Assembly: GCA_007126375.1 (NCBI GenBank)
Contig: SLBI01000225.1
Location: 1 to 45,710, forward strand
Origin: Paracoccaceae bacterium
GTDB taxonomy: Bacteria; Pseudomonadota; Alphaproteobacteria; Rhodobacterales; Rhodobacteraceae
Direction of reading: 5' to 3'
Length of the DNA: 45,710 nucleotides
Each line of letters opens with the position of its first letter. Position 1 is the first letter of the stretch. Under the pieces are notes generated by a model that made no database searches, was not told the DNA's origin, and saw only the letters and a program-made list of their open reading frames with translations. Positions 34,044 through 42,809 of the stretch are shown here, in pieces. The translations under genes were made by a program, and so were the position numbers.

Positions 34044-36074
34044 ATGCAGGACGCACTGGTGATCTTCACCCCCTCGGGCAAGCGCGGGAGGGTGCCGCTG
34101 GACACGCCGGTTCTTGCGGCGGCGCGCCAGCTTGGCGTCGATCTCGATTCGGTATGCGGCGGGCGCGGTATCTGCTCGAAATGCCAGGTGGCGCCGCAGT
34201 TCGGCGATTTTGCCAAGCACGGGGTGCTTTCGGCCCCCGGAGCGCTGTCGGAGTGGAACGCGGTCGAGGAACGCTATCGCAGCAAGCGCGGAATGGCCGA
34301 GGGGCGCCGGCTGGGGTGTCAGGCGCTGATCCGGGGCGATGTGGTGATCGACGTGCCACCCGAAAGCCAGCTGCACCGGCAGGTGGTGCGCAAGGCTGCC
34401 AGTGCGCGCGCGATGGAGATGGATCCGGCCACGCGGCTGTTTCTGGTCGATGTGGCCGAGCCGGACATGCACGAGCCCTCGGGCGATTTCGAGCGGCTGG
34501 CGCAGGCGCTGGCCGAGCAATGGCAGATCGACGGGTTGGCGGCCGATCTGGAGGTGCTTCGCGGGCTGCAACCGGCGCTGCGCAAGGGCGACTGGCAGGT
34601 CACTGTGGCGGTGCATCGCGGCCGCGACGGCACGCCACCGCGGCTGACGGGCGTCTGGCCCGGGTTTCACGACGGCGGGCTTTTCGGCCTCGCCATCGAT
34701 CTCGGCTCCACCACCATTGCCGCACATCTGACCGATCTTGCGGACGGCAGCGTGCGGGCCAGCGCGGGCGTGATGAATCCCCAGATCCGTTTCGGCGAGG
34801 ATCTGATGAGCCGGGTCTCCTATGTCATGATGAATCCGGGTGGCGATGCGGAGATGACGGCGGCGGTGCGCGCCGCGATGAATGACCTCGCCCGTGAACT
34901 GGCGGCCGAGGCGGCGGTGGCGCCAACGGCCATCCTCGAAGCCGTGGTCGTGTGCAATCCGGTAATGCATCACCTCTTTCTCGGGATCGACCCGGTCGAG
35001 CTTGGGCAGGCACCGTTCGCGCTTGCCACCTCCGGCCCGGTCGAGACCGCAGCGCGCGATCTGGGTCTGACGGCGATCGCCACGGGGGCCCGCCTCTACA
35101 TGCTGCCCTGCATCGCCGGGCATGTCGGCGCGGATGCAGCCGCCGTCGCGCTGTCCGAAGCGCCGGAAAAATCGGAGGATCTCGTTCTCGTCGTCGACGT
35201 CGGTACCAATGCCGAGATCCTGCTGGGCGACCGGCGCCGGGTGCTGGCCTGCTCCTCGCCCACGGGCCCGGCCTTCGAGGGGGCGCAGATCTCCTCCGGC
35301 CAGCGGGCCGCGCCCGGCGCCATCGAACGGGTGGAGATCGACCCGGAAACAAAAGAGCCACGGTTCAAGGTGATCGGCTGCGATCTTTGGTCAGACGACC
35401 CGGCCTTTCCCGCCGACCAGAGGGTCACGGGCATCTGCGGCTCGGGCATCATCGAGGCGGTGGCCGAGATGCGCATGGCCGGGCTGCTGGATGCCTCCGG
35501 CCTGATCGGCAGCCCCGGGCAGACCGGCACCTCGCGGTGCGAGCCCGAGGGGCGCACGCATGCCTGGCTGCTGCACGATGCCAGCGACGGGGGTGGCCCG
35601 CGCATCCGCGTCACCCAGAGCGACATACGGGCGATCCAGCTCGCGAAATCGGCGCTCTATGCCGGAGCGCGGCTGCTGATGGACGAGATCGGCACAGACC
35701 ATGTGGATCGCGTGGTGCTGGCCGGCGCCTTTGGTGCGCACATCTCGCCCAAGCATGCGATGGTGCTGGGGATGATCCCCGACGTGCCGCTCGACAAGGT
35801 GCGATCGGCCGGCAACGCCGCCGGAACCGGCGCGCGCATGGCGCTGTGTTCGCGGGCTGCGCGAGCGCAGATAGAGGCCAATGTGCGCCGCATCCACAAG
35901 GTCGAAACCGCCATCGAGCCGCGATTTCAGGAGCACTTCGTGGCCGCCAACGCCCTGCCCCACGCCACTGCCTCCTTCGCCGGTCTGCGCGCGACAGTTC
36001 CGCTGCCCGAGCCGAGCTTCAACCGTGGCAACGAGGGCGGCGACGGCCGCCGGAGGCGGCGCGCGCCGGCGTGA
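34044..36074 (+). CDS. 2Fe-2S ferredoxin/ASKHA-domain protein (DUF4445, RACo-like)
   Basis: N-terminal CX5CX2C (CGGRGICSKC) plus RLGCQ; C-terminal actin-like ATPase motifs (LAIDLGSTTIAAHL, VVDVGTNAEILLG, VVLAGAFGAHI). Confidence 0.9.
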   Translation: MQDALVIFTPSGKRGRVPLDTPVLAAARQLGVDLDSVCGGRGICSKCQVAPQFGDFAKHGVLSAPGALSEWNAVEERYRSKRGMAEGRRLGCQALIRGDVVIDVPPESQLHRQVVRKAASARAMEMDPATRLFLVDVAEPDMHEPSGDFERLAQALAEQWQIDGLAADLEVLRGLQPALRKGDWQVTVAVHRGRDGTPPRLTGVWPGFHDGGLFGLAIDLGSTTIAAHLTDLADGSVRASAGVMNPQIRFGEDLMSRVSYVMMNPGGDAEMTAAVRAAMNDLARELAAEAAVAPTAILEAVVVCNPVMHHLFLGIDPVELGQAPFALATSGPVETAARDLGLTAIATGARLYMLPCIAGHVGADAAAVALSEAPEKSEDLVLVVDVGTNAEILLGDRRRVLACSSPTGPAFEGAQISSGQRAAPGAIERVEIDPETKEPRFKVIGCDLWSDDPAFPADQRVTGICGSGIIEAVAEMRMAGLLDASGLIGSPGQTGTSRCEPEGRTHAWLLHDASDGGGPRIRVTQSDIRAIQLAKSALYAGARLLMDEIGTDHVDRVVLAGAFGAHISPKHAMVLGMIPDVPLDKVRSAGNAAGTGARMALCSRAARAQIEANVRRIHKVETAIEPRFQEHFVAANALPHATASFAGLRATVPLPEPSFNRGNEGGDGRRRRRAPA

Positions 36075-38382: not shown

Positions 38383-38982
38383 TCAGGCAAAGACCCGGGT
38401 GTGGGGTGCGCAGCCGTGCAACGCCGGGCGAACCAGTCGGGTTCCGTCTGCCGGCGCTTCGCTCGCACACCAGGCTCCCTCGGCCCAGATCAGTTCGTGA
38501 CGATCAAACGTCAGGGCGACCAGATGCACGCAGGCCGCCGCATCCGTCCGGCCGATGCCGGCACGACCGACGAGATCGCCGGCAGCTACCAGCACCTCGG
38601 GCGTGCCGAAGCGCAGGCTCGCCTCGGCACAACGGACCATAAGGCACTGATCCGGCGCAACCAGCAGATCGCCCTGCGGCAGGCCACGGCCGAATGCCCC
38701 CGCGGGAATGCGCACCGCTGTGCCCGTTGGCACAGACGCCGCCGAGACGGATGCGGCGATGACGCCGCGCAGGGGCCGAAAGCCGCGGTCGCGTGTCAGC
38801 ACCCGGTCGCCGGGCGCCAGCCGGCCCGCGGGCCGCAGCCCCTGCAAGGTCATCACCGCCGTCGTGCAGGACAGTCCGCCGGCCGGTCCGGGGCCATGAC
38901 CGGCTGCAACCGGGCGTGGTCCGGTCGTACCCGGCGCCAGGTGCCGCACACTGTCGAGAAGCGCCAAATCGCCGTCTGCCAT
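38383..38982 (-). CDS. Hint-domain protein, divergent copy
   Basis: SCTTAVMTLQGLRPAGRLAPGDRVLTRDRGFRPLRGV…LVAPDQCLMVRC; parallels the downstream-numbered paralog at 39126-39806. Confidence 0.75.
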   Translation of the reverse strand: MADGDLALLDSVRHLAPGTTGPRPVAAGHGPGPAGGLSCTTAVMTLQGLRPAGRLAPGDRVLTRDRGFRPLRGVIAASVSAASVPTGTAVRIPAGAFGRGLPQGDLLVAPDQCLMVRCAEASLRFGTPEVLVAAGDLVGRAGIGRTDAAACVHLVALTFDRHELIWAEGAWCASEAPADGTRLVRPALHGCAPHTRVFA

Positions 38983-39125: not shown

Positions 39126-39806
39126 TCAGACGAGCAGCTTCGCCTCCTGCCGGCCGAGTGTCCGGCGGGCAGCGGCGAAGCGCTCCGTCGTGTCGGGATC
39201 GGCGAGTTCGGGGAAGAGCTGCTGCAGTTCCAGCCGCTGGGCGTTGCCCATACCCTTCAGCGACCGGTCGGCGGGCTGGAAACTCTCGGTCCAGGCACCG
39301 TTGGAAAGCACCACCTCGTGCCGGGCGCACATGAAGTGCACGTAGGTTACCCCGGGCGCGTCGATTTCGCGGATGCTGCCGTGGTTGATCAGGTGCTTGG
39401 CGGCGACCAGCACCTCCCGTTCCTCGAAGAAGAGCTGTGTGCGCTCGTTGGCCACCAGCACCCGGTGCTGTGGCGAGACCAGCATGTCGCGTTCCGGCAG
39501 GCCGTGGCCGAGGGCGCCGGCCTCGATCAGCACGGGCTTCATGTGGCGCTCGCTGGCCAGACGGTGCCAGTCGAGGCGGCACCGCCCGACCCAGCACACC
39601 TCCTGAAGGCCGTTGTCGCGGGTCACGACGCGGTCGCCGGCGCGCAGTTCATGGACCGGGCGTTCCCCGTCCGGCGTCGCAACGCGTGTTCCCGGGGTGA
39701 AGCACGGCACGCGCAGCGGCGTGACCTGCCCCGCGCCGTCGTTGCCTTCCCTCGCGTGCAGGTGAAGCCCGCGGTCGAGGTTTCCGAAGATAGCATCGGC
39801 AGCCAT
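39126..39806 (-). CDS. Hint-domain protein (Hedgehog/intein-type)
   Basis: CFTPGTRVATPDGERPVHELRAGDRVVTRDNGLQEVCWVGR…LVSPQHRVLVAN…VTYVHFMCARHEVVLSNGAWTESF; start MAADAIF at 39806. Confidence 0.88.
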   Translation of the reverse strand: MAADAIFGNLDRGLHLHAREGNDGAGQVTPLRVPCFTPGTRVATPDGERPVHELRAGDRVVTRDNGLQEVCWVGRCRLDWHRLASERHMKPVLIEAGALGHGLPERDMLVSPQHRVLVANERTQLFFEEREVLVAAKHLINHGSIREIDAPGVTYVHFMCARHEVVLSNGAWTESFQPADRSLKGMGNAQRLELQQLFPELADPDTTERFAAARRTLGRQEAKLLV

Positions 39807-40397: not shown

Positions 40398-40475
40398 TTG
40401 AACGCAAACCGCTTCGCCCGGCAACGGCATCGCCGCCAACCTGTGCGGCAGAAAGGCCCGACGGGGTGGACAGTC

Positions 40476-40493
40476 TGTCAGGAATGATTGACA
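40476..40493. promoter_or_regulatory. PpsR/CrtJ-like operator TGTC-N10-GACA
   Basis: TGTCAGGAATGATTGACA, extended arms CTGTCA/TGACAG, 28 nt upstream of the ATG at 40522. Confidence 0.5.
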
Positions 40494-40521
40494 GTTTTTG
40501 CGATTGCACAGGAGATCCGCC

Positions 40522-41775
40522 ATGCCGCTCGACCCCGCCAACCCGCCCGGCCTCCACGCCCCGGCGCTGGGTGGCGCTGCACGCGAGGGGCTCTGCACCG
40601 ATTGCGGTGTTTCCAGAATGGGTGACGGCAAGGCCTGCGGCCGTGCCTGTCAGTTCATCCGTCCCGACTATCCTGCGCTCGAACGTGCGGCGCACGGCCG
40701 CAGCGCCGATCCCGAACGCGGCGAGGAAGGCTTCTTCGGTCCCTATCGCGCCATGCACCGCGCCCGCCTCACGGCACCCGCCGAGGGCGCCCAGTGGACC
40801 GGCATCACGACGGCGCTGGCCGCCCGACTGCTGGAAACCGGTGCGGTGGATGCCGTGCTAACGGTCGCCCCGGATCCCGAGGACCGCTGGAAACCGCTTC
40901 CCGTGATCGTCACCGACCCCGCCGCCCTGGCGCAGTGCCGCGGCATGCGGATGGGCTATGCGCCGCTGGTGGCCCTGCTGGAGCCTGCGCGTGCTGCCGG
41001 CCATCGGCGCATCGCGATGATCGGCATCCCCTGTCAGGTCTATGCGCTGCGCGCCCTCGAGGCAGAACTGGGCTTCGAACGGATCTTCGTGATCGGCACG
41101 CCGTGCTCGGACAACACCACCACCGAGAACTTCCATACCTTTCTCAAGCTCCTCGATCCGAAGCCCGAGACCATCAGCTATCTCGAGTTCCGCGCCGACT
41201 ACCGGCTGGAGCTTCGCTTCGATGACGGCCGGCCCGGGCGCACCATTCCCTTTCTTCGGCTGCCGATCTCGAAACTGCCGGCGGATTTCTTTCCGATGAC
41301 CTGCAAGACCTGCGTGGATTATACCAATCGGTTGGCCGACATCACCGTCGGCTACATGGCGGGTGACGGCGATCAGTGGGTGATCGTGCGCAACCGGCGC
41401 GGCGCCGAACTGCTGCAACTGCTTGAAGGAGAGTTGCAGACGCGGCCGTTCGCCGACAAGGGCAAGCGCCGGGGCCCGGTCGCGGGGTTTCTGAAGAACA
41501 CCGAACGCGCCGCGGGCGGGCTGCCACTGCGCGCGATGCCCGACTGGGCCCGCCCCATCGCCGCCTGGCTGCAGCCGCGCATCGGCCCGCGCGGGCTGGA
41601 ATTCGCCCGGGCGCGAGTGGAGATGAAGGCAATCGAGACGGTTCTGCACCTGCGTCGTGCGCATCCCGCAAGGATGAAGAACATGGTGCCCGACCATGTC
41701 TGGCGACTCGTCGCGCCCTACGGCATCGCCCCCGAGCCGGGCGAGCGGCGCGAGGAAGGAGACACGCAGCCGTGA
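40522..41775 (+). CDS. bciB: F420 hydrogenase/dehydrogenase β-subunit family protein, BciB-like 8-vinyl reductase
   Basis: LCTDCGVSRMGDGKACGRACQFIRPDY, IGIPCQVYALRALE, GTPCSDNTT, CKTCVDYTNRLADITVGYM; AGGAG 7 nt upstream of the ATG at 40522. Confidence 0.75.
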   Translation: MPLDPANPPGLHAPALGGAAREGLCTDCGVSRMGDGKACGRACQFIRPDYPALERAAHGRSADPERGEEGFFGPYRAMHRARLTAPAEGAQWTGITTALAARLLETGAVDAVLTVAPDPEDRWKPLPVIVTDPAALAQCRGMRMGYAPLVALLEPARAAGHRRIAMIGIPCQVYALRALEAELGFERIFVIGTPCSDNTTTENFHTFLKLLDPKPETISYLEFRADYRLELRFDDGRPGRTIPFLRLPISKLPADFFPMTCKTCVDYTNRLADITVGYMAGDGDQWVIVRNRRGAELLQLLEGELQTRPFADKGKRRGPVAGFLKNTERAAGGLPLRAMPDWARPIAAWLQPRIGPRGLEFARARVEMKAIETVLHLRRAHPARMKNMVPDHVWRLVAPYGIAPEPGERREEGDTQP

Positions 41776-41837: not shown

Positions 41838-42809
41838 ATGCCTGCAACGATGCGTCTCGCCGCCGCCTTCACCTGCGTGCTTGCGCTTCCCGCCGCCGCT
41901 GACCCTGCGCAGTGGGGCGGTGAATGGCCCGACACGGATTTCAGCCGTGCCAGCGTCCCCTTTTCCGAGATCATCTCCGGCGGTCCGCCGAAGGACGGCA
42001 TCCCGGCGATCTGGGAACCGGCCTTCCTGCCGGTCGCCGAAGAAACGAGGATCGAGGATCTCGAACCGGTGATGACGCTGGAAATCGACGGCGAGACGCC
42101 GCGTGCCTATCCGATCCGCTACCTGATGTGGCACGAGATCGTCAACGACGTGGTCGGCGGCCTGCCCGTCGCCGTCACCTACTGCCCGCTGTGCAACTCC
42201 GGCATGGTGTTCGACGCCCGCCTCGATGGCGGGGCGCTGACCTTCGGCGTTTCCGGGAAGCTGCGGCACTCGGACATGGTGATGTACGATCGCGAGACGC
42301 AGAGCTGGTGGCAGCAGGCCATCGGCGAGGGGATCGTCGGCACCCACACCGGCCGCAAGCTGGACCAGCTTCCCGCCTGGATGGAAAGCTGGGGTGATTT
42401 CCGCAGCCGCAACCCGGATGGCCTGGTGATGGACGAGCCCGAATGGCGCCGCCAATACGGTGCCAACCCTTATGTCGGCTATGACGGATCCATCCGGCCC
42501 TTCCTTTATTCGGGCGAGTTGCCGCCACACGGCATCCCCGCACTCGCCCGCGTGGTGCGGGTGGGCGACCGCGCATGGACCTTCGAGCGGGTTCGGGAGG
42601 CCGGCGAAATCACCGAGGCCGGAGTCCGGATCAGCTGGTCATCGGGCCAGGCCTCGGCGCTCGACGACATGCGCATCAGCGAGGGGCGCGATGTTGGCAC
42701 CATCCGCGTGCGTGACGCCGCCAGCGGCAGGGATGTCGCGCACGACATACCCTTCGCCTTCGCCTTCCATGCCTTCTTTCCCGATGGCGAATGGATGCTC
42801 GGCAACTGA
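41838..42809 (+). CDS. DUF3179 domain-containing secreted protein
   Basis: Signal peptide; EIDGETPRAYPIRYLMWHEIVNDVVGGLPVAVTYCPLCNSGMVFDARLDG. Confidence 0.92.
   Translation: MPATMRLAAAFTCVLALPAAADPAQWGGEWPDTDFSRASVPFSEIISGGPPKDGIPAIWEPAFLPVAEETRIEDLEPVMTLEIDGETPRAYPIRYLMWHEIVNDVVGGLPVAVTYCPLCNSGMVFDARLDGGALTFGVSGKLRHSDMVMYDRETQSWWQQAIGEGIVGTHTGRKLDQLPAWMESWGDFRSRNPDGLVMDEPEWRRQYGANPYVGYDGSIRPFLYSGELPPHGIPALARVVRVGDRAWTFERVREAGEITEAGVRISWSSGQASALDDMRISEGRDVGTIRVRDAASGRDVAHDIPFAFAFHAFFPDGEWMLGN

Follow-up and report, generated by a model that had tools for sequence, protein, structure and literature searches.

bciB, a stand-alone gene for a likely 8-vinyl reductase, is very probably repressed by PpsR through a palindromic operator just upstream of its start codon. 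The operator, TGTCAGGAATGATTGACA, is of the PpsR/CrtJ type and lies at positions 40476–40493 (plus strand) of the window, i.e. the whole stretch of 45,710 nt that was analysed. The genome carries ppsR and a set of sites distributed like a PpsR regulon, the operator is conserved upstream of orthologs, the protein belongs to the HCAR/BciB family, and bciB and bciA exclude each other among related genomes. From these observations we infer PpsR binding, the repression of bciB and the 8-vinyl reaction of its product.

In their oxidised form or under light, repressors of the PpsR family bind their palindrome and block transcription. PpsR, whose gene lies elsewhere in the genome of this phototrophic member of the Rhodobacteraceae, would bind the palindrome upstream of bciB and repress the gene under oxygen and/or light, probably by covering the transcription start, with the TTGACA arm serving as the −35 element. 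The product, a predicted flavin/[4Fe-4S] enzyme, would reduce the C8-vinyl group of (proto)chlorophyllide. bciB, although outside the photosynthesis cluster, would share one switch with bch, crt and puc.

Operator site and score

The operator ends 28 nt before the ATG at 40522 and matches both the TGT-N12-ACA core and the TGTC-N10-GACA form. The palindrome had been described at this place and distance in a first-pass annotation of the DNA, and the sequence confirms it. The arms also extend to CTGTCA/TGACAG as described, one base further on each side (40475–40494). TGTC-N10-GACA occurs only once in the window. In shuffled versions of the window, the bare pattern was found a mean of 0.48 times and in 39 of 100 shuffles. 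Since about 0.5 matches are expected per window of such composition, the bare match alone is not significant, and the site was therefore scored with an independent ChIP-derived matrix.

The matrix was built from 13 R. sphaeroides ChIP-seq PpsR sites (PMC4344238, Table 2), whose own scores range from 13.6 to 26.2 bits, with a median of 20.6. The bciB site scored 20.6 bits, which equals the median of the ChIP sites. In random sequence of order 2 (2 Mb), no position reached 20.6 bits or more; in the whole window, every other position stayed at or below 9 bits.

The first-pass annotation had found a single site nearby where PpsR often uses two. This holds for strong sites, of which there is one. 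However, 3 nt upstream of the operator there is a half-site, TGGACA (40467–40472, plus strand), a possible degenerate second PpsR site. It is common to the genome studied here and two genomes of the same genus (G000, G001 and G002), and the 18-mer at this position scored only 0.4 bits. A full tandem PpsR-like pair with the same 3-nt gap is present upstream of bciB in genome G061, and tandem sites also precede the gene in G053. In R. sphaeroides, the ChIP table gives a single motif for most targets (PMC4344238).

A further element, TGGAC, was seen, always 7 nt after the operator, in five loci of the Rhodobacter/Gemmobacter group (L114, L115, L116, L118 and L120). Its form is TGGACG, or TGGACT in L115. 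It may belong to a second, overlapping PpsR site or be a promoter element.

PpsR and photosynthesis genes in the genome

The genome is a metagenome-assembled genome (MAG) of 401 contigs and 76% completeness. It encodes a full-length PpsR (G000:C56:3131-4453; 490 bits against a cut-off of 275.4). Genes found were bchN, bchF, ppaA/aerR, crtF, bchC, bchX, crtA, bchI, crtI, crtB, bchP, bchG and pucBAC. With the Roseinatronobacter photosynthesis cluster as the reference, four cluster fragments were recognised: bchN-bchF/ppaA-ppsR, crtE-crtF-bchC-bchX, bchI-crtA/crtI-crtB-tspO-crtC-crtD, and bchG-BCD-type transporter-bchP-idi. pucBA-pucC is on a separate contig, where pucBA was recognised by eye. 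Among the genes by which the first-pass annotation proposed to check the genome, ppsR and bch genes are present and puf was not found. No reaction-centre genes (puf, pufLM) were found in the MAG, and three genomes of the same genus contain pufLM; we attribute the absence to the incompleteness of the MAG. None of the other photosynthesis genes was found in the window, as the first-pass annotation had noted.

A genome-wide count gave seven copies of the short pattern TGTCA-N8-TGACA and none of a reversed control pattern. One copy is the bciB site. The other six precede bchF/ppaA, pucBA (two copies), bchC, crtA/crtI and bchG, so that every copy elsewhere is at a bch, crt or puc promoter, the concentration that the first-pass annotation had suggested looking for. 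The statistics for this genome combine pattern searches of the whole genome with 388 kb of its DNA chosen around pattern matches. In these 388 kb, the 13 best matrix matches were the bciB site and 12 photosynthesis sites, located at bchF/ppaA, pucBAC, crtF/bchC, crtA/crtI and bchG; as the DNA was picked around pattern matches, this ranking is supportive and not unbiased.

The site could be real and yet be used by another regulator that recognises TGTCA-N8-TGACA. Some genomes with no detected ppsR hold four to six copies of the short pattern, which would fit such a regulator. However, the copy number tracks ppsR (on average 5.6 copies in genomes that have it, 1.8 in the others; p 2e-8), and six of the seven copies in the MAG are at classic PpsR promoters. 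We consider a different regulator very improbable.

Conservation of the operator upstream of orthologs

A site of at least 13 bits was found for 11 of the 16 family-genome orthologs with readable upstream DNA, and within 450 nt upstream of 34 of the 78 homologs from named genomes. The remaining locus DNA (652 kb) contained 11 matches at this threshold. In genomes of the same genus, the site was 94–100% identical, while the next 28 nt were only 18–29% identical (ungapped). The alignment of upstream regions, another check put forward in the first-pass annotation, thus found the palindrome kept.

Five of the 16 family orthologs and about 12 Rhodobacterales in the named set had no such site, meaning that the operator is not universal at bciB. 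Its presence or absence changed at least 10 times on the gene tree, so it was gained or lost repeatedly. Nearly all bciB homologs are outside the photosynthesis cluster; bch neighbours within ~4 kb of bciB were seen only in Phycosocius (L172) and in L177.

Genome G048 (98% complete) has an intact bciB on contig C24 (L074) with a near-perfect PpsR site of 27.1 bits, and neither ppsR nor reaction-centre genes were found there. We propose that photosynthesis was lost recently or that a plasmid is missing.

These data bear on the view that the palindrome has no regulatory role, being a chance match or a relic, and that bciB is constitutive. The expected number of bare matches per window, the orthologs lacking the site and the case of G048 all fit this view. 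So do strong yet silent PpsR sites in R. sphaeroides, where two ChIP-bound genes with strong motifs showed unchanged expression in a ppsR mutant (PMC4344238). However, the matrix score is at the median of functional sites, the site is kept within an otherwise diverged spacer, and it recurs at 34 of the 78 named-genome homologs. A chance match or relic is therefore improbable, and a functional PpsR operator is the preferred reading.

Promoter elements and leader

A Shine-Dalgarno-like AGGAG at 40510–40514 (plus strand) was read from the sequence. The sigma-70 scan found no consensus promoter at bciB in the window. Among 33 non-redundant relatives, the gene-proximal operator arm reads TTGACA in 24 and the distal arm in 8. 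This bias points to the proximal arm as a −35 box, and suggests that TTGACA at 40488–40493 (plus strand) doubles as the −35 element here. A −10-like hexamer (GATACT, GATAGT and similar) follows 17 nt after TTGACA in 7 of the 33 relatives; the corresponding hexamer in the window is not convincing.

A scan called CTGTCAGGAATGATTGACAG-TTTTT terminator-like, which raises the question of whether the element acts as RNA, i.e. as a stem-loop followed by a U tract (a terminator or attenuator) in the bciB leader. The folding of the leader was no better than that of shuffles (z −0.44). Among 36 sites, the seven-pair stem was present in only 10 and the T-rich tail in 6, while the TGT/ACA ends stay. Moreover, the stem is disrupted in asymmetric variants, e.g. 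TGTAAA...TTGACA. Given these fold statistics and the loss of pairing in relatives, the RNA reading is scarcely credible and was rejected.

The bciB-like gene and its protein

The bciB-like gene (40522–41775, plus strand) encodes a flavoprotein of 417 aa with FrhB_FdhB_N and FrhB_FdhB_C domains, a likely 8-vinyl reductase by its HCAR match and its place in the tree. BciB is a ferredoxin-dependent 8-vinyl (proto)chlorophyllide reductase (Synechocystis slr1923, Chloroherpeton). The protein shares with BciB the FrhB_N/FrhB_C domains and cysteines able to hold two [4Fe-4S] clusters, the likeness having been measured over the full length against the BciB-related HCAR. The best PDB match was 7-hydroxymethyl chlorophyll a reductase (HCAR, 5dqr; E 6.5e-68), a plant chlorophyll-cycle enzyme, with ~35% identity over residues 8–400, nearly the whole length. 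As the organism is a bacteriochlorophyll producer, the HCAR function is not expected here.

In the tree, the protein groups with HCAR and a Thiodictyon homolog, apart from the Rhodobacterales FrhB paralogs. The branches to the distant rows are long and the exact placement of these rows is unsure; the BciB side is represented by HCAR, with no assayed BciB sequence. Both similarity and tree agree with the earlier naming of the gene as BciB-like. An F420-dependent hydrogenase/dehydrogenase beta subunit (FrhB, FpoF) was considered and rejected: the scores were 66–85 bits against curated cut-offs of 269–475, and the tree separates the FrhB paralogs. One annotated plasmid homolog bears no more specific name than 'Coenzyme F420 hydrogenase/dehydrogenase, beta subunit C-terminal domain'.

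Eight cysteines (C25, C28, C39, C43, C171, C195, C261 and C264) are the putative ligands of two [4Fe-4S] clusters and are kept in nearly all proteobacterial members. Seven of the eight align with HCAR, and C39 stands in for the third motif cysteine of HCAR. All 87 proteobacterial rows (including L098–L177) have Ser in place of the third Cys of the N-terminal CxxCxxC motif, whereas HCAR and the Thiodictyon homolog retain Cys at this position. In nearly all proteobacterial rows a new cysteine, C39 here, precedes C43. By its place in the alignment, C39 may be a relocated [4Fe-4S] ligand.

Co-occurrence with ppsR and BciA

The sample for co-occurrence comprised 121 related genomes centred on the MAG. 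A close bciB homolog was found in 17 genomes and ppsR in 34; 16 of the 17 bciB genomes had ppsR (p 9e-10). The query for BciA, an 8-vinyl reductase unrelated to BciB, came from an R. sphaeroides-like genome, where the motifs SCLASR and LLSAICVQ identified it. BciA was present in 12 genomes, all of them with ppsR. No genome of the 121 had both bciB and bciA. Among the 34 ppsR genomes, this lack of overlap has p 3e-5 if the two are independent, a figure that shared ancestry weakens. This pattern is the one expected of two enzymes that can replace each other at a single step.

G004, a genome of the same genus (99% complete), has ppsR and pufLM, and neither BciB nor BciA was found in it; 8-vinyl reduction there would need BchXYZ or another enzyme.

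The operator might be genuine and the enzyme catalyse another reaction, e.g. on a degradation substrate or an HCAR-like one. The nearest solved relative, HCAR, acts at C7 of chlorophyll, and one cysteine of the N-terminal motif is shifted in the proteobacterial clade. Against this, bciB and bciA were never in one genome and both go with ppsR. Moreover, according to a review (PMC7242693), some purple bacteria have BciB as their 8-vinyl reductase, and the green sulfur bacterial enzyme contains FAD and two [4Fe-4S] clusters. Another reaction is unlikely, and 8-vinyl reduction is preferred. No assayed Rhodobacterales member of the family was found in the literature searched.

The named homologs were mostly from Roseicyclus, Rhodophyticola, Rubrivivax, Roseomonas relatives and Phycosocius. 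These lineages include phototrophs.

Comparison with known PpsR regulons

The PpsR/CrtJ regulon of R. sphaeroides and R. capsulatus has the same operator (TGT-N12-ACA, mostly TGTC-N10-GACA) and the same repressor family, and the core targets bchF/ppaA, bchC, crtA/crtI, bchG and puc are shared. R. sphaeroides uses BciA. No PpsR site was found before R. sphaeroides bciA; this upstream search covered 3 of the 12 bciA loci. The R. sphaeroides ChIP table contains no 8-vinyl reductase gene (PMC4344238), whereas in the MAG bciB would form a target of its own, apart from the photosynthesis cluster. No report of PpsR control of bciB was found in the literature searched, of which coverage was partial.

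The first-pass annotation had regarded the gene as a possible outlying member of a PpsR regulon. The presence of ppsR, the distribution of sites, the conservation at orthologs and the grouping of the protein all speak for this at the sequence level; none of the computable counter-observations that it had named occurred, and the assignment is therefore well supported. In the same sense, bciB as a new satellite target of a known type of PpsR regulon is well supported. The regulon would then reach beyond the photosynthesis cluster, to one step of the pigment pathway whose enzyme differs between relatives. The bciB site offers a concrete conserved target for studying how satellite genes stay under one oxygen/light switch, and a widespread gene receives a functional assignment as candidate BciB.

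A broader scheme for the Rhodobacterales is possible and is offered tentatively, as somewhat less probable than its opposite. In lineages with BciB (Fe-S, ferredoxin-dependent), a PpsR operator with a TTGACA/−35 arm may have been acquired or retained repeatedly, while in lineages with BciA (NADPH-dependent) PpsR may not control bciA. The BciB of proteobacteria would form a sub-family of its own, in which a cluster cysteine has moved: in contrast to the CxxCxxC of HCAR and Thiodictyon, it has Ser in the third position and an extra cysteine further on (C39).

Other genes in the window

A pair of Hint-domain (PF13403) genes (38386–38982 and 39129–39806, minus strand) lies just upstream of bciB and divergent from it. 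Directly downstream on the same strand as bciB is a gene for a DUF3179 protein (41838–42806; E 1.7e-84). The window also encodes a RACo-type corrinoid-activating ATPase (ASKHA domain) at 34044–36071.
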